Assembly (NCBI RefSeq): GCF_014217835.1
Contig: NZ_CP055263.1
Location: 1,240,001-1,304,000, forward strand
DNA: 64,000 nucleotides
Reading direction: 5' to 3'
Origin: Metabacillus sp. KUDC1714
GTDB lineage: Bacteria; Bacillota; Bacilli; Bacillales; Bacillaceae
The position numbers were made by a program, and so were the translations under genes. The notes beneath the pieces were generated by a model. That model worked only from the letters and a program-made list of their open reading frames with translations, was not told where the DNA came from and did no database searches. Positions 42,839 through 50,213 of the stretch are shown here, piece after piece (the stretch's first letter is position 1; every line of letters begins with the position of its first letter).

Positions 42839-43055
42839 GGCTCTTTTCTAAAAGATTGTTGTTTTTGAACAAAACTGATTAGGGTGATTGGAACGGATAT
42901 GCGAGACTCCTGTGGGAGTAGCGGGACAGATGAGACCCCGCAGGCGCTTCGCGCTGAGGAGGCTTATCGCCCGCCCCACGGAAAGCGAGCATCCTCTCGC
43001 TGCAATCAACCAACCCAATACTATTTTAAAAGCAACAAAGTTTGCGAAAACAGCC
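42839..43055 (+). mobile_element. MITE-like repeat, copy 3 (perfect 8-bp target duplication)
   Basis: This 217-bp element is flanked by exact TAATATTT copies at 42831-42838 and 43056-43063. The left end GGCTCTTTTCTAAAAGATTG and the right end read inward, GGCTGTTTTCGCAAACTTTG, agree at 18 of the first 23 bases (counting three further bases). The core from 42882 to 43011 is the most diverged of the three copies and shows paired changes in its stems. It lies between cls and the aminotransferase gene. Confidence 0.92.
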
Positions 43056-43060
43056 TAATA

Positions 43061-43072
43061 TTTTGTCGAATA
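43061..43072 (+). promoter_or_regulatory. Spo0A-box-like site upstream of the aminotransferase
   Basis: TTTTGTCGAATA contains TGTCGAA, a match to the 0A-box TGNCGAA. The same 12-mer occurs at 33115, 59217 and 60801. It directly abuts the right flanking duplication of MITE copy 3 and is about 85 bp upstream of the gene. Confidence 0.45.
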
Positions 43073-43157
43073 CACTGTGAGAATACTCTTTAGTATGTTA
43101 AAATATTTCTTAATGAATTTTCAAAATTTTTATCTTCCATAGAGGTGAAACGAGATA

Positions 43158-44450
43158 ATGAATGAATTAGCACAAGCTTTAAATAATTCAATGAAAGAAG
43201 ACAACGAACATGTCTATAATATGTTGTCTCAATTAGGGAAAGAATTGTTTTATCCAAAGGGGATTTTAAGCCAATCTGCAGAAGCAGGGAAAAAAGCCCA
43301 TCGTTTCAATGCAACAATTGGTATCGCTACTGAAAACAATCAACCGATGCACTTTCAACACATTCAAAATCTTTTCGGTGATAAAATCGCACCTAAGGAC
43401 CTTTTCCCATACGCACCACCACAAGGAAAAGAAGATTTACGTAAAGTTTGGAAGAAAAAAATTCTTAATGATAACCCTAGCTTAAATGAAGAATTAGTCG
43501 GTTCACCAGTCGTAACAAATGCCCTTACACATGGATTAAGCATTGTGGCTGACTTATTTGTCGACGAAGGCAACCCAATCATCCTTCCAGATAAATATTG
43601 GGGTAATTACAACATTACCTTTAAAGTGCGTCGTGGAGGAACGGTTACAACGTATCCATTATTCAACGAAGCAGACGGTTTTAATGTTGAAGGCTTAAGA
43701 GAAGCGATCCAATCGCAAAAAGCAGCTGGAAAAGTTGTCGTGTTATTAAACTTCCCGAACAATCCAACCGGCTACACACCTCTTGAATCAGAAGCAAAAG
43801 AAATTGTTGCTGTTCTTAAAGAAGCAGCTGAAGAAGGCATAAATGTAGTAGCACTTATTGATGATGCGTATTTTGGATTATTTTACGAAGATTCAATTAA
43901 GGAATCAATCTTTAGCCTATTAGCTGACGCACACGAACGCATCCTCGCGATTAAAGTAGATGGAGCAACAAAGGAAAACTACGTATGGGGATTCCGTGTT
44001 GGATTTATCACATATGCTAGCAAAAGCGCTGCCGTTCTAAACGCATTAGAGCAAAAAACAAAAGGAATCATCAGGGGAACCATTTCAAGTGGCTCACACC
44101 CTTCTCAATCAATTATTCTACAATCATTACAGTCAAATGAGTTCAATGTAGAAAAAGAGCAAAAATTTGCGCTAATGAAACGCAGAGCAGATAAAACGAA
44201 AGAAGTACTTGCAAAAGAAGAATACCAAAAGTACTGGACATACTATCCATTTAATTCTGGATACTTTATGTGCCTTAAACTTAACAACATTAACGCAGAA
44301 GAGCTTCGTTTACACCTATTAGATAAATACGGAGTCGGAACAATTTCAATCAATTCTACAGATCTTCGTATTGCATTCTCATGTGTTGAGGACTCAGACA
44401 TAGAGGAATTATTTGATCTGATTGCTAAAGGTGCAGCAGACTTGCAGTAA
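43158..44450 (+). CDS. aminotransferase class I/II (fold type I, PLP-dependent)
   Basis: The 430-residue protein has the aminotransferase I/II pattern: VVTNALTHGLSIVADLFVDEGNPIILPDKYWGN in the PLP region, LLNFPNNPTGYTPLE, LIDDAYFGLF, and the Schiff-base lysine region AIKVDGATKENYVWGFRVGF. It resembles a group of Bacillus aminotransferases of unassigned specificity that begin MNxLAQALNxxI. GGTGAAA precedes the ATG. It is monocistronic with its own terminator. The amino donor is unknown. Confidence 0.85.
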   Translation: MNELAQALNNSMKEDNEHVYNMLSQLGKELFYPKGILSQSAEAGKKAHRFNATIGIATENNQPMHFQHIQNLFGDKIAPKDLFPYAPPQGKEDLRKVWKKKILNDNPSLNEELVGSPVVTNALTHGLSIVADLFVDEGNPIILPDKYWGNYNITFKVRRGGTVTTYPLFNEADGFNVEGLREAIQSQKAAGKVVVLLNFPNNPTGYTPLESEAKEIVAVLKEAAEEGINVVALIDDAYFGLFYEDSIKESIFSLLADAHERILAIKVDGATKENYVWGFRVGFITYASKSAAVLNALEQKTKGIIRGTISSGSHPSQSIILQSLQSNEFNVEKEQKFALMKRRADKTKEVLAKEEYQKYWTYYPFNSGYFMCLKLNNINAEELRLHLLDKYGVGTISINSTDLRIAFSCVEDSDIEELFDLIAKGAADLQ

Positions 44451-44468
44451 TCATATATGATTAGAAAT

Positions 44469-44497
44469 GCCCGCCATGAATGAATTGGCGGGCTTTA
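44469..44497 (+). terminator. terminator of the aminotransferase gene
   Basis: GCCCGCCA, a nine-base loop, TGGCGGGC is followed by TTTATATT, 18 bp past the stop codon. Confidence 0.85.
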
Positions 44498-44611
44498 TAT
44501 TATCTTAAAAGAGAAGAATACATTCAAAAAAAGACTACCCCTTTGTATCGACCTCACCTCAACCATATACTTTGACGGCTACTCTTGCCATCCACCCTAC
44601 TATTATAATTC

Positions 44612-44659
44612 TGTCACTTTAGACGGTATTTTGCACCTTTTTTAAGTACTATTTTGCAC
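44612..44659 (+). repeat. left terminal inverted repeat of the cassette
   Basis: Blocks in order: TGTCACTTTAG, ACGG, TATTTTGCA, CCTT, TTTTAAG, TAC, TATTTTGCAC. The TATTTTGCA submotif is repeated at 23-bp spacing, as expected for paired transposase-binding sites. Confidence 0.88.
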
Positions 44660-44971
44660 ACCCAACATTAAAACCCAACAACCTTCACATTAGAAGATAA
44701 GCTGGGTTTCTTCATTAATTATGTCCAATCACTAAACTATTTCGTGCAGCTTCTACTACTTCGGTGGTAATTGATGTAAGGTGATTTATTTCGAGTTCAA
44801 TTTGAGTAAATAGACGGTGAAGACAGGTTGCTTTTTTGATAAAGAGCGCTTTTTTAATTTTGTTCCACAATCTGGCCAGATTCTTGCATAACAGCAGGTA
44901 AATTTGTTGATGATGTAGAAATTTAATCGTATAGTCGTTGTTAATCGAATTATACAAGGGTGGGAGTTAAT
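44660..44971. other. left flank inside the cassette, hairpin at 44671-44709
   Basis: AAACCCA and TGGGTTT pair around an inner CTTC/GAAG stem at 44671-44709. Beyond it the DNA to the S66 gene is AT-rich. A minus-strand open frame of 80 codons (44715-44957) has no ribosome binding site and a TTG start, and I do not accept it as a gene. Confidence 0.4.
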
Positions 44972-46003
44972 GTGTTAATAAAACCAAAGAAATTGCAGCC
45001 AGGAGATATTGTTGCAACAATAAGTCCTTCATGGGGAGGGGCAGGTGATCCTGAGCTAATATGGCGTTATGAGCAAGGTGTAAAGAGATTAGAAGAAGTT
45101 TTCGGTCTTAAGGTTGTCCCAATGCCGAATAGTTTGAAAGGTGGAGATTACCTTTATAAGAATCCACAAGCTCGTGCGGAAGATTTGATGACGGCATTTA
45201 AAGATAAGAGCATTAAAGGAATCTTTGCAAATATTGGTGGAGAAGATAGTATTCGTTTACTTCCTTATATTGATTTTAATGTAATACATGAGAATCCAAA
45301 AATTTTTATGGGCTATTCAGATGTAACGATTTCGCATTTGTTTTGCCATAAAGCAGGTATATCATCTTTTTACGGCCCAGCGATTTTAGTTGATTTTGCA
45401 GAAAATGTTGAAATGGATACATACACAATTGAAAGGGTAAGGCGAATGTTCTTTTCAAATGAAGTTATCGGTGAAATTCAACCAGCTAAAGAATGGACAA
45501 GTGAGTATTTGGAATGGGATGAAGCGAATAAGAACAAGCGCCGTACGATGCAGCAGAATTCGGGTTATGAATTACTTCAAGGTTCAGGTATCGTACAAGG
45601 GCGTTTGATTGGTGGTTGTATTGAAGTGTTAGAGTTCGCGAAAGGAACAGAAATTTGGCCTGATAAGAAATATTGGGATGATAGCATTCTTTTCTTTGAA
45701 ACATCTGAAGAAAAGCCAAAACCAGAACATATAAAATATTGGCTGCGGAATTATGCTGCACAAGGTATTCTGCAAAAAGCGAATGGAATCATTTTTGGTA
45801 AACCACAAGACGAGGAGTATTACGAAGAATATAAAGTAGAAATTCAAAAAGTCATGAAGGAATATGATTTGGAAAATTTGCCGATTCTTTATAACTTGAA
45901 TTTTGGTCATACCGAACCGAAGTTTATTTTACCATATGGCGCGATGGCAGAGATTAACTGTAACAATGAGACTTTCTTTATTTTAGAAAGTGGAGTGGAG
46001 TAA
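44972..46003 (+). CDS. S66 family serine peptidase (LD-carboxypeptidase / MccF-like)
   Basis: The protein has about 343 residues. The S66 catalytic elements are present: the nucleophile in FMGYSDVTISHLF near residue 114, a glutamate candidate in ILFFETSEEKPKPEH, and the histidine in LNFGHTEPKF. S66 enzymes either trim the peptidoglycan L,D-peptide bond (LdcA) or, as MccF, cleave microcin-C-type peptidyl nucleotides; the lack of a signal peptide and the extended loop fit the MccF branch slightly better. A frame is open from GTG 44960, but GGGAG is five bases before the GTG at 44972. It is the first cargo gene of the mobile cassette. Confidence 0.85.
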   Translation: MLIKPKKLQPGDIVATISPSWGGAGDPELIWRYEQGVKRLEEVFGLKVVPMPNSLKGGDYLYKNPQARAEDLMTAFKDKSIKGIFANIGGEDSIRLLPYIDFNVIHENPKIFMGYSDVTISHLFCHKAGISSFYGPAILVDFAENVEMDTYTIERVRRMFFSNEVIGEIQPAKEWTSEYLEWDEANKNKRRTMQQNSGYELLQGSGIVQGRLIGGCIEVLEFAKGTEIWPDKKYWDDSILFFETSEEKPKPEHIKYWLRNYAAQGILQKANGIIFGKPQDEEYYEEYKVEIQKVMKEYDLENLPILYNLNFGHTEPKFILPYGAMAEINCNNETFFILESGVE

Positions 46004-46097
46004 ATTAATTTTCTAAACGGTTTCTATTGGGAATTCCATAACAAATAACGAATTAATTAAATATGTTTGTCACACAATTTTCATGGGGGAATTATCA

Positions 46098-46607
46098 ATG
46101 AAACTTTTCCATTTTAGTGAAAATCCTAATATTACTTACTTCGAACCACATGTTCCCAAAACCAATTCCAAGGAAGAATCATTTGTCTGGGCAATTGATG
46201 AAGAGCACGCACCACATTATTATTTTCCTCGTGAATGCCCACGTGTGGCTTTCTGGACATCTTCAGAAACTACAGGTGACGACTTAATTCGTTTCTTTGG
46301 CCATACTTCTGTCAATCGAATTATCGCAATAGAAACATCTTGGCTTAAACGTATTAGAGAAACAGAACTATATGCTTACACGTTACCATCTGAAACTTTT
46401 GAGTGCTTTGATGTAAATGCTGGTTACTATGTTTCTCGAAAAGCTGTTACCCCCCTTTCTGTTGACCCTGTTGGAGATTTATTAGATAGACTTGTGCAAA
46501 CAAACATAGAATTACGAATTACACCAACCCTCTGGAAGCTTCGTGATGAAATCATACATTCATCAGTAAGCTTTTCTATCATTCGAATGAGGAATGCATC
46601 ACACTAA
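46098..46607 (+). CDS. DUF6886 family protein
   Basis: The 169-residue soluble protein starts MKLFHFSENPNITYFEPHVPK; with VWAIDEEHAPHYYFPRECPRVAFW this matches proteins I know as DUF6886, of unknown function. The opening LFHFSE, a histidine-rich first strand and a fold tied to ligand-like pockets recall ADP-ribosyltransferase-like DUFs, but that is only a similarity of appearance. The ATG at 46098 follows GGGGGA by seven bases. It is the second cargo gene. Confidence 0.7.
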   Translation: MKLFHFSENPNITYFEPHVPKTNSKEESFVWAIDEEHAPHYYFPRECPRVAFWTSSETTGDDLIRFFGHTSVNRIIAIETSWLKRIRETELYAYTLPSETFECFDVNAGYYVSRKAVTPLSVDPVGDLLDRLVQTNIELRITPTLWKLRDEIIHSSVSFSIIRMRNASH

Positions 46608-46660
46608 TATTAAGCTATAGGGCAGGAGTATTGAATAAGGGAGCTATTGGAGGAAGTAAG

Positions 46661-47080
46661 ATGAAGACCGTGTGTAAGGCTATTATTGAAGATTTGGAAA
46701 AAATAGTTAATATAGACAGTGAGGTTATTGGCAACACAAGCAGACGAGACTATATTGAGAATGCCATTAAGCTAGGACACTGTATAATAGCGAAAGAAGA
46801 AGAGTACATTGTGGGATTTTTAATTTACGATACTAACTTCTTTGAATGTTCTTTTATATCACTAATTATTGTGTCACCGTCCAAAAGACGAAAAGGATAT
46901 GCAAGCTTACTGATGGATTATATGATGAGTACATCCCCTACTACGAAGGTATTTTCTTCTACTAATCGTTCTAACATTAATATGCAAAAAGTATTTAATA
47001 CAAATGGATTTATTCAGAGTGGCATAGTAGAAAATTTAGATGAAGGAGATCCTGAAGTCATATACTTTAAATCAAAGTAG
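46661..47080 (+). CDS. GNAT family N-acetyltransferase (RimI-like)
   Basis: The 139-residue GNAT domain has ISLIIVSPSKRRKGYASLLMDYMM (motif A, acetyl-CoA loop) and MQKVFNTNGFIQSGIVENLDEGDPEVIYF (motif B and final strand). The start at 46661 follows GGAGG by seven bases; the longer frame adds ten codons. It is the third cargo gene of the mobile cassette and ends 40 bp before the IS110 remnant. The substrate is unknown; a detoxifying role is possible given the MccF-like neighbour. Confidence 0.78.
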   Translation: MKTVCKAIIEDLEKIVNIDSEVIGNTSRRDYIENAIKLGHCIIAKEEEYIVGFLIYDTNFFECSFISLIIVSPSKRRKGYASLLMDYMMSTSPTTKVFSSTNRSNINMQKVFNTNGFIQSGIVENLDEGDPEVIYFKSK

Positions 47081-47120
47081 TAGTTATTCAAGATTAGGGG
47101 TCAAAAGTGGAAGGTCGTTA

Positions 47121-47931
47121 TTAATGTCTTTGATCAATTTCCTGCTCTAGTACGTTGAGAAACTCTCGTTGTTGGAGAAGCATTTGAATATACATTTTTA
47201 GAGTAACCAAATGGCTTTGATACAGTGTTTTCTTAAATGGATTCCGTTTTGCTGCCTCTTTTAACTTCAATGCCTTTTCGAAAAACCAACCATATGATCT
47301 CTTTCCTCCTAGACCATGCATCTCCTTAGCTAATTCATCAGTTTGTACCTTCAACACGTCATCAGAAGTAGGATAGGTGAGTAAAGTCTTTAATGATATA
47401 GGAGAATATAAATTACTAAAAACCCCTTTATATTCAGGGAAAACTTGATCAAGAATGGTTTGAAACTGTAGTTTAAGTTGAACATAATTGCGGGTTAATG
47501 AATCGTGTTGTCTACTCAAATTTCTCAAGTTCATGGTTTGAACACTCTTACGATGAAACGCTGTTAAGTCTTCTTTGTAGTACAGTTCACACAAATGTTT
47601 CGCATCAGCAGGATCCGACTTCACTTTTCGAAGTCTACTTTTTTTCGTTTCGTAAGAAACAACCGGATTTACTAAGTAGTAGGTAATTTTTCTTTCCTCA
47701 AGATACTGTAAAATCGGTTCGTGGTAATGACCTGTAGATTCAAAAATGATGACTGGTTCAGCGTCAGCGTGTCGTTCTACCTCTTTATAAAATACATAAA
47801 AATCACACAGTCCATTAGTGTCATGCTTAAACTTAAAGGTCTTTCCATAGTCCATAGGGATGCTTTCTTGCCAGGAAAGCTTGAACTTGGCTTTCTCCTT
47901 TTGCGACATCCAGGCCAATCACTGGATCCAT
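47121..47931 (-). pseudogene. IS110 family transposase, frameshifted and missing its C-terminal domain
   Basis: The true start is ATG at 47931 (MDPVIGLDVAKGESQVQAF), carrying the first Asp of the DEDD RuvC-like domain; Glu (IIFESTGHYHEP) and two Asp (KSDPADAKHLCEL) follow. The frame breaks at a 7-bp tandem duplication, TCCATAG twice, at 47844-47857; removing one copy restores HPYGKTFKFKHD in frame. At the 3' end a second frame change follows LEQEID, and the Transposase_20 domain with the catalytic serine is absent. IS110 recombinases are about 400 residues, so roughly a third is lost. Confidence 0.85.
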
Positions 47932-48218
47932 ACTTTATCACATCTCCTCATACTAGATTTGTCGGTAGCCCCTGTCTATCTTGTAGTATCATAGCTTCGC
48001 TTGTTATGCGGGGTCTAAGCCCCAACCAGCCTCAAACATGTTTCTACAAGTAGGGGGTGGACAGTATAACGGACGGGATCTATTTGATACCAGAAGTCCC
48101 AAGGGCGCTTGCGTCCTACCCCGACTACCTAAAGAATAGCCTATAAAAAATAGGCCATCCAGATAAAAAAACAATCTGGATGACCTTATAATACGAAGGG
48201 CGCTTTTCCGGAGTAACG
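47932..48218 (-). other. non-coding 5' end of the IS110 remnant
   Basis: About 190 bp upstream of the IS110 start is GC-richer and structured (GGGGTCTAAGCCCC near 48010, GGGCGCTTGCGTCC near 48103). Two hairpins follow: GCCTAT/ATAGGC near 48139-48154 and CATCCAGAT/ATCTGGATG at 48155-48182. In IS110 elements the non-coding end 5' of the transposase encodes the bridge RNA, so this stretch may preserve one. The assignment is inferred. Confidence 0.4.
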
Positions 48219-48266
48219 AAAAAAGTCCAATTTCTCAATTTTAATGCTGAGAAATTGGGCTTTTTT
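48219..48266. terminator. strong terminator-like hairpin near the right end of the cassette
   Basis: AAAAAAGTCCAATTTCTCA, a ten-base loop, TGAGAAATTGGGCTTTTTT forms a long stem with T-runs on both strands. It lies just inside the right terminal repeat and would insulate the cassette from outside transcription. Confidence 0.8.
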
Positions 48267-48279
48267 ATATTTACTTATA

Positions 48280-48327
48280 GTGCAAAATAACGCTTAAAAT
48301 ATATGCAAAATAACTCCTAAAGTGACA
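48280..48327 (-). repeat. right terminal inverted repeat of the cassette
   Basis: Read inward on the minus strand: TGTCACTTTAG, GAGT, TATTTTGCA, TATA, TTTTAAG, CGT, TATTTTGCAC. It agrees with the left end at 39 of 48 positions, and the submotif spacing is also 23 bp. Confidence 0.88.
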
Positions 48328-48348
48328 TATAATTCTAGTAATCTTTCA

Positions 48349-48390
48349 AAAAAATATCCCAATAAGGTTCACCTTATTGGGATATTTTTT
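48349..48390. terminator. terminator of the TRAP operon
   Basis: AAAAAATATCCCAATAAGG, a four-base loop, CCTTATTGGGATATTTTTT is a perfect stem with T-runs on both strands, 37 bp past the dctM-like stop codon. Confidence 0.92.
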
Positions 48391-48426
48391 AAAAAAGTTG
48401 GTTAAAGAAAATTTCATCTTTGTTTA

Positions 48427-49701
48427 TTACTCAGTGAACCAACTTAATGGAACAGTCACTAATTCAGGGAATAGAACTAATAGTATCAAGATCCCCAGCT
48501 GTACTAATAAGAATGGCATGATCCCCTTAGTAATATCAACAATACTAATTTTGCTGATGCCACACCCAATATAAAGTACGGTTCCAACTGGAGGAGTAAT
48601 TAATCCAATCGATAGATTAATAACCATTAATAACCCAAAGTAAACTGGATCAATGCCAACAGCGGTCACTACAGGAAGTAGTACTGGAGTAAAGATTAGA
48701 ATTGCAGGTGTTAAATCCATTACACAACCAACAACCAGCAAGAAAAGCATAATAATCAATAATAAAATGGTCGGATTGGTTGTAAGGCCACTTAAAAACT
48801 CAACCAATTCTCTAGGTATTTGTGCAACAGTGATGGCATAACCTGAAACAACAGCGGTAGATGCTACAAACATAACGATACCTGTTGTTTTTGCAGTATC
48901 CACAAACACATTAGACAACTGTCTCCATTTAATTTCTCTATAGAAAAAGCTAATAATCAATGCATAAATTGCTGCTACTACTCCCGCTTCTGTAGGAGTA
49001 AAAATGCCACCACGAAGCCCTACAATAATAATGACTGGAAGCATAAGCGCCCAAAAAGCTCGTATTAAGGCTGTCCATTTTTGTTTAGCCGTTGCTTTTG
49101 GCACTGTTTCACTTTGATCTTTTTTTGATACAAAGTACCAAACAACTACAAGTCCTACAGCAATTAAGATTCCTGGAACGATACCTGCCATGAATAATTG
49201 TGTAATTGAAACGCCTCCAACTACTCCAAATAAAATCATTGGGATACTTGGTGGAATAATTGTACCAATGATCCCTGTTGCTGCAACAAGACCTGTTGAA
49301 GAGTTTTTGTTATAACCTTTTGCAATCATCATTGGAATTAAGATCGCACCTAGTGCTGCTGTATCTGCTACAGCTGACCCTGACAACCCTGCAAAAATAA
49401 CACCTGACATAATGACAACATATCCAAGTCCGCCTCTAATATGCCCTACAAATGCACTCGCGAATTCTACTATTCGCTTTGAAACACCACCAGCATTCAT
49501 GATTTCACCGGTTAGGATGAAGAATGGAATGGCCATCAATGAAAAGTTATTTGCCCCTTTTACTAAATAATCACCCAGAATACCAGTATCAAATAAACCT
49601 AGCACAGCTAGCATGACTATCGCACTGCTTAGCATAGAGATGGCAACAGGAACTCCTATTAGAAGGAAAAGAAACAAGGTTAGCAAAAATACTAAGATCA
49701 T
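48427..49701 (-). CDS. TRAP transporter large permease (DctM-like)
   Basis: The 424-residue integral membrane subunit has about 12 hydrophobic segments and is the transport channel of a sodium- or proton-driven TRAP system. Family motifs include GVPVAISML, GSAVADTAALGAILIPMM, GIIGTIIPPSIPMILFG and LITPPVGTVLYIGCGI. Its ATG overlaps the small-permease stop by four bases. It is the last gene of the operon. The substrate is probably a sugar acid, given the kinase and aldolase upstream. Confidence 0.93.
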   Translation of the reverse strand: MILVFLLTLFLFLLIGVPVAISMLSSAIVMLAVLGLFDTGILGDYLVKGANNFSLMAIPFFILTGEIMNAGGVSKRIVEFASAFVGHIRGGLGYVVIMSGVIFAGLSGSAVADTAALGAILIPMMIAKGYNKNSSTGLVAATGIIGTIIPPSIPMILFGVVGGVSITQLFMAGIVPGILIAVGLVVVWYFVSKKDQSETVPKATAKQKWTALIRAFWALMLPVIIIVGLRGGIFTPTEAGVVAAIYALIISFFYREIKWRQLSNVFVDTAKTTGIVMFVASTAVVSGYAITVAQIPRELVEFLSGLTTNPTILLLIIMLFLLVVGCVMDLTPAILIFTPVLLPVVTAVGIDPVYFGLLMVINLSIGLITPPVGTVLYIGCGISKISIVDITKGIMPFLLVQLGILILLVLFPELVTVPLSWFTE

Positions 49702-50213
49702 TTTGTGTCCCCCATTTCATTCTCAGACTTTGCCCAAAGTGGAGCATCTTGATTAAAAAATACAAAACGAATTGTTTGTACACTCGTTATGATAATCATG
49801 AGAATAGAGGCAACAATACCAGCTAAATAAAAGACTGCTTCTGGTATTCCTGTCGCAGGACCCGATACCATTTTATTGACCTCCATCATTTTGAAAAGAC
49901 CATCAATAAATAGGGTTAAAACAAATACTATTAAAGAGTTAGCTATAAAGTACAGAACTTTTTGGAATTTTCTAGGGACTGAGCTAATCAAAAGATCCAC
50001 ACCAAGATGACCTTTTTCTTTTGTTGCAACAACTGCTCCCAAAAAAACAACCCAGACGAACAAATAACGAGCAAGTTCTTCTGACCATGTAATCCCGGAG
50101 TCAAAGGCATAACGTAGAACAACGTTTAAAAACACCAGTGATACCATGGAAACAAGGATCAATATGATGACGCCATTTAATATGCTATTGAGAACTTTTA
50201 ACACTTTCTCCAT
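49698..50213 (-). CDS. TRAP transporter small permease (DctQ-like)
   Basis: The 171-residue protein has four membrane helices and the DctQ pattern (VVLRYAFDSGITWSEELARYLFVWVVFLGAVVATKEKGHLGVD). It docks the binding protein to the large permease. AGAGGTG is eight bases before the ATG at 50213; six upstream in-frame codons are not needed. Confidence 0.92.
   Translation of the reverse strand: MEKVLKVLNSILNGVIILILVSMVSLVFLNVVLRYAFDSGITWSEELARYLFVWVVFLGAVVATKEKGHLGVDLLISSVPRKFQKVLYFIANSLIVFVLTLFIDGLFKMMEVNKMVSGPATGIPEAVFYLAGIVASILMIIITSVQTIRFVFFNQDAPLWAKSENEMGDTK

Follow-up and report, generated by a model that had tools for sequence, protein, structure and literature searches.

The locus examined here raises the question of how a block of passenger genes came to lie between two long inverted ends on a chromosome that appears to hold no enzyme able to move them. 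It is found in a 64,000-nucleotide stretch of the Metabacillus sp. KUDC1714 chromosome (contig NZ_CP055263.1, positions 1,240,001 to 1,304,000; hereafter the window, which also sets the coordinates used below), between an aminotransferase gene and the operon of a tripartite ATP-independent periplasmic (TRAP) transporter. The unit is 3,716 bp long (44612-48327), has inverted 48-bp ends and a flanking 8-bp repeat, and is very probably a non-autonomous, internally deleted derivative of a Tn552-type transposon, carrying as cargo the genes for an S66 peptidase, a DUF6886 protein and a Gcn5-related N-acetyltransferase (GNAT), together with the relic of an IS110 insertion sequence. Tn552 is familiar mainly as the penicillinase transposon of staphylococci, and its classical form has a transposase of 480 amino acids, an ATPase of 271 amino acids and 48-bp ends.

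Ends of the element and their family

The features of the locus are, in order along the window:

44604-44611: left copy of the target duplication, TATAATTC
44612-44659, plus strand: left 48-bp end, ATPase-side type (TGTCACTTTAG), with two TATTTTGCA sites 23 bp apart; 53.9 bits with end model R1
44671-44710, minus strand: terminator-like hairpin inside the left end, downstream in the reading direction of the ATPase gene (fold z -4.0, minus strand)
44724-44825, minus strand: relic of a Tn552-type ATPase gene, last ~36 codons (residues 233-268 of a 270-residue relative; 87% over 38 residues to the congener element L091)
44826-44852: putative deletion/fusion joint, where the ATPase homology ends and the native upstream DNA of the S66 gene starts
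44960-46003, plus strand: S66 peptidase, 347 residues, LD-carboxypeptidase or MccF-like (PF02016, PF17676; first of two possible starts)
46083-46607, plus strand: DUF6886 protein, 174 residues (PF21820, E 1e-71)
46631-47080, plus strand: GNAT acetyltransferase, 149 residues (PF00583, E 3e-9)
47121-48205, minus strand: IS110-type insertion sequence relic, whose open reading frame (47121-47918) retains only the N-terminal DEDD domain
48219-48266, strand not assigned: strong terminator-like hairpin inside the right end (fold z -7.0 / -5.3; terminator scan)
48280-48327, minus strand: right 48-bp end, cargo-side type; the last 132 bp are 98% identical to the right end of L091
48328-48335: right copy of the target duplication, TATAATTC

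When 44612-44659 is compared with 48280-48327 in inverted orientation, 39 of 48 positions are identical; each end holds TATTTTGCA at its positions 16 and 39, a spacing of 23 bp, and TATAATTC directly abuts both ends as a perfect 8/8 copy. Re-measurement thus returned the values of an initial annotation of this DNA, which had described the 3,716-bp segment, its inverted ends with their motif doublets and the exact flanking duplication. The end score lies above that of the controls, in which the best inverted 48-mers reached 29-32 matches when the 4-kb segment was shuffled ten times and 31-34 matches in six other 4-kb pieces of the window, and an exact 8-mer duplication at random pairs of window positions had a frequency of 3.75e-5 (400,000 draws). 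Local hairpins match or beat this score (43 at 48337-48396, outside the element, and 40 at 48219-48266, inside the right end), and the sole distant inverted pair scoring at least 38 in the segment is that formed by the two ends.

A probe made of the initial 24 bases of one end, four positions being left open, picked out 47 stretches in genome records, with titles nearly all from Bacillales, and 38 ends from many Bacillales form a gap-free alignment of the same form as the window ends. At three loci (L053, L025 and L044) such ends enclose a resolvase, a transposase of 482-485 residues and an ATPase of 269-270 residues. The L053 proteins carry the Pfam domains Resolvase, rve with Mu-transpos_C, and AAA_22, and the L053 transposase is 54.5% identical to TnpA of a Staphylococcus aureus plasmid Tn552 (LC784010.1). 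Judged by sequence, the window ends are of the Tn552 type, because near-identical ends bound these resolvase, TnpA and ATPase elements. The record that contains L025 is titled Sphingomonas and has Priestia-like flanks, and its element is 99.6% identical to a Priestia megaterium plasmid copy; it is probably a contaminating contig.

The staphylococcal Tn552 ends start with TGTCACTTT, hold a doublet of ATGAGAA 23 bp apart and are flanked by the 8-bp duplication GATTAGGG (LC784010.1). The window ends too begin with TGTCACTTT and have their two sites 23 bp apart, the duplication is likewise of 8 bp, and an ATPase-gene relic inside one end is a further point of likeness to the family. The window element differs in that resolvase and transposase genes are missing, the ATPase gene is truncated, the cargo is not bla, and the repeated end motif is TATTTTGCA rather than ATGAGAA.

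The ATPase relic and the deletion joint

When the ATPase of L053 was compared with the host genome, a single chromosomal contig of 5,764,082 bases, one match was obtained, at 44724-44825 on the minus strand (residues 233-268, 79% identity, E 2.3e-6). The relic sits inside the left end in the same position and direction as the ATPase gene of L091, a 13,408-bp element of the congener G014 that has the same layout as the window element. Between the two elements, 196 of 220 positions are identical at the left end (89%) and 129 of 132 at the right end (98%); the homology on the left stops at 44819, and in three of the S66 loci of other species homology begins at 44853-44863. The ATPase-side ends of L091, L025, L048, L144 and L142 also have a hairpin of the same kind as that at 44671-44710.

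With an ATPase tail inside its left end, the window element is therefore predicted to be a deletion derivative of a known kind of transposon, the Tn552 type, having lost the resolvase and the transposase as well as the greater part of the ATPase; no serine resolvase gene was found among the open reading frames listed for the element. The initial annotation had called the unit transposase-less, and rightly so in that it has no enzyme of its own, but it overlooked that the left 214 bp are transposition-module DNA holding the end of the ATPase gene.

The ancestor would have had the layout of L091, with the genes for ATPase, transposase and resolvase next to one end and cargo next to the other. 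A deletion would then have taken out the resolvase and transposase genes and spared only the last ~36 codons of the ATPase gene, along with both 48-bp ends, the subterminal hairpins and the cargo block. Entry into the chromosome would have been by Tn552-type transposition, leaving the 8-bp duplication between the aminotransferase gene and the TRAP operon, and the chances that the window copy moved before and after the loss of its enzymes are about even. A Tn552-type transposase supplied in trans would bind the two sites of each end, so that the element could become mobile again when a helper enters the cell.

No relative of the transposase was found when the whole host genome was searched with TnpA, a query that in other genomes recovered relatives as distant as 27% identity. 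The earlier statement that nothing present could move these ends is true of the window and, by this search, of the host genome, and the autonomous partner for which a search of the host had been proposed did not appear. The end model (E 0.001, stricter filters) recognised only the two window ends in the host. A decayed ATPase-side end (near 3,215,382-3,215,479) and the relic of a Tn552-type subterminal hairpin (near 3,239,975-3,240,046) are present elsewhere in the host, and the lineage therefore appears to have met other such elements; the nearest congener, G001, carries a Tn552-type end.

The DNA next to the window insertion showed no resolvase gene. Many elements (L091, L092, L093, L036-L038, L042 and L206) have a serine resolvase gene directly outside their ends, as expected of transposons that seek res sites.

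Enzyme-less relatives and the question of mobility

Left and right ends in order were found at 24 loci, a sample selected by similarity to the window's own end rather than at random. Of these, 14 have a transposase (475 or more matched residues) and the other 10 lack one. Several pairs in one locus (L014, L157, L158) were counted once and many single-end loci were left out; L093 and L162 are the same cassette, the right ends of L142 (18.8 bits) and L143 (16.8 bits) are weak, L028 and L056 have two cargo-side ends each, and L014, with a complete ATPase gene ~11 kb away, may belong to a larger element. A duplication of at least 5 bp flanks 7 of the 14 transposase-bearing loci and 3 of the 10 enzyme-less loci.

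Two sets of enzyme-less loci bear on mobility. L093, a plasmid locus assigned to Metabacillus sp. B2-18, and L162, from the genome of Bacillus sp. B1-b2 and thus of a second genus, are 99.9% identical over 4,698 bp and 99.6% identical over 445 bp, with unrelated flanks. Their cassette has no full TnpA, only a 104-residue transposase fragment; the L093 copy has the 6-bp duplication CTAAAC, and a Tn3-family transposon is nested inside the L162 copy. L142 and L144 have in common one joint that deletes tnpA-tnpB and keeps the resolvase (91-93% identical), and differ in cargo and flanks; L144 has a 7-bp duplication (CACGGAA), and the joint recurs in L153 and L154, there with the outer end lost. The near-identity of the first pair at unrelated sites, and the recurrence of the second joint with other cargo and in other surroundings, give good support to movement in trans for enzyme-less Tn552-ended elements as a class. 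By analogy, the window copy itself may have moved in this way.

Smaller forms exist as well. Among the matches listed for plasmid records (30 of 108), there are at least two ~430-bp miniature inverted-repeat transposable elements (MITEs) with Tn552-type ends on Priestia plasmids, 89% identical to each other, in each of which a 29-residue ATPase tail is joined to the other end; the plasmid records also hold a MITE relative carrying a DinB gene and a 1,010-bp GNAT cassette. The proposal that the same ends might be met around other cargo is thus borne out, by the DinB and GNAT forms, a glycosyltransferase cassette and L142/L144. The glycosyltransferase, of the macrolide family (TIGR01426), lies in a 1.9-kb enzyme-less end pair of Peribacillus butanolivorans (L048, 5001-6890) that has no duplication. 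In L014 and L044 (Macrococcus, Gracilibacillus), Tn552-type ends surround genes whose predicted products are a heavy-metal P-type ATPase, an ArsR-like regulator and a CadD-like protein. A transposase-bearing element of 7,923 bp, with ATPase-side ends on both sides, is present at equal length and with different flanks in three genomes (L205, L206, L207); the duplication of L206, GTCTACT, is the same as that of a different element in L159.

At E 0.001, transposase matches were obtained in 24 of 51 genomes searched, several of which are incomplete or no more than 26-30% identical, and none in the host, G066, G070 (which has 10 ends), G090 or G108. Helpers, if acting, are therefore mostly absent now.

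The best-surviving alternative is that a complete Tn552-type transposon inserted at this site and decayed in place through later deletions, partly via IS110 activity, leaving a fossil that never moved as a cassette; we regard this as quite possible, if just short of probable. The persistence of the ATPase tail is consistent with such a history, as are the IS110 relic, as a sign of internal decay, and the present lack of a helper transposase in the host. The joint between the ATPase tail and the S66 upstream DNA was found in no other genome within the sets examined, and therefore nothing shows that the window derivative itself moved. Furthermore, the Priestia MITE L225 and the complete element L025 are 97% identical across the cargo-side end and 2.5 kb of the DNA flanking it, which suggests that small forms of the L225 type can arise in situ. 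Decay in place sits less well with the intact 8/8 duplication, the well-kept ends and the whole cargo reading frames, and dispersal is demonstrable for other enzyme-less cassettes bearing these ends.

The unique joint and the missing helper also weigh against reading the window element as a non-autonomous Tn552-type derivative that entered by transposition and may still be moved in trans, and several further observations do so too. The transposase gene of G014 has one in-frame stop, so L091 may itself be inactive. No duplication flanks 7 of the 10 enzyme-less pairs or any of the four small plasmid elements (the two MITEs, the DinB form and the GNAT cassette), and in Bacillales relatives with TnpA the duplications are of 5-7 bp, 8 bp being found only in the staphylococcal copy. 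Nor was an empty site seen: the aminotransferase locus is present in 19 of 20 congeners (nucleotide search), the TRAP side aligned downstream of it in none (~1.5 kb compared, 153 bases in one), and the joined flanks gave no spanning match with the 19 congener aminotransferase loci, the TRAP locus of G014 or others. The left flank (44502-44608) is a conserved ~107-bp intergenic repeat that recurs at L104 in the host and at L105 and L106 in two congeners; at L106 the match extends 9 bases past the joint, too short for an empty site. Rfam gave no match over 43000-49800 to E 0.1.

Derivation from an IS21-family or Tn7-like element is very unlikely. Complex two-site ends and a TG start are also typical of those families, and IS21 was a first guess from the end sequence; however, the IstB model gave three weak matches in the host genome (27.9-40.9 bits), unrelated to the ends, and also matches 13 of 14 control genomes, no IstA or IstB genes were found among the elements sharing the ends, and those elements carry Tn552-type TnpA, ATPase and resolvase modules. 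The same modules displace the IS21-, Tn7- or IS231-type ends of the initial annotation. An IS231 (IS4-family) mobile insertion cassette, as in the Bacillus cereus group, has a similar general form, with passenger genes between ends and no transposase, but the ends belong to a different transposon family, which makes this origin highly improbable. A chance inverted repeat beside a chance octamer, for which AT-rich DNA and the local hairpins near the right end might be invoked, has a negligible probability given 39 of 48 matches against 29-34 in controls, the rarity of such octamer pairs and the homologous ends in other genomes, whose profile the window ends fit.

Known systems and cargo genes

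The general form of a mobile insertion cassette, as first proposed, is retained: matching ends, a target duplication and passenger genes, with no transposase in the element or the host genome. The MIC231 cassettes of B. cereus likewise hold passenger genes between transposon ends and lack a transposase, but their ends are of the IS231/IS4 family. One report (PMC7765201) treats tni-defective Tn5053/Tn402 elements and class 1 integrons (Tn6606, Tn6607, In0, In2) as mobile via tni functions supplied in trans; like the window element they keep intact ends on either side of their cargo and have lost all or part of the transposition module, and Tn6607, as described there, keeps the resolvase but not the rest of the module, as do L142 and L144. 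Tn5053-type elements differ in being Gram-negative, with 5-bp repeats and often at res sites, from the Tn552-ended element in Bacillales. MITEs and Tn3-derived inverted-repeat miniature elements (TIMEs) are likewise deletion derivatives moved in trans, and the ~430-bp forms on Priestia plasmids resemble them; the window element differs in being 3.7 kb long and gene-bearing.

The open-access papers searched, subscription titles being outside their scope, yielded none with both 'mobile insertion cassette' and 'Tn552' and nothing on enzyme-less Tn552 cassettes. Tn552 is not mentioned in the accessible portions of a MITE review (PMC10969869) and a B. cereus mobilome paper (PMC6542083), and PMC12486829 describes Tn552-II, with Tn554-like tnpABC.

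We somewhat favour a broader view in which Tn552-type ends define a Bacillales pool of enzyme-less cassettes, ranging from ~430-bp MITEs through one-gene forms (DinB, GNAT, macrolide-type glycosyltransferase) to multi-gene ones, which would swap cargo and cross genera on helper transposases; it would be a Gram-positive counterpart of Tn402 and class 1 integrons, with detoxification-type genes as a common load. The Tn552 end type surrounds varied enzyme-less cargo in soil Bacillales, one copy being near-identical in two genera. Cassettes of this kind, if moved in trans, would escape annotation keyed on transposases, and the short ends together with the ATPase tail offer a simple signature for finding them.

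As regards the cargo of the window element, the three plus-strand genes reported initially are whole (347, 174 and 149 residues), and the IS110 gene described as dead is a reading frame of 265 residues, holding the DEDD domain only, against 445 residues for another copy in the same genome. In a co-occurrence search that covered 397 genomes from the order along with 20 congeners (scoring 2 and 14 candidate places in each genome), only the host's own match, among the matches listed, spans more than one of the S66, DUF6886 and GNAT genes; the same three genes without terminal repeats, named at the outset as evidence that would count against a cassette, were not found among those matches. Anti-phage models gave no match with the three cargo proteins. 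The best relatives at the DNA level are each in a different genome (S66 92%, GNAT 90%, DUF6886 86%), and the solved chains nearest to the S66 peptidase are named MccC family protein (5f9m and others).

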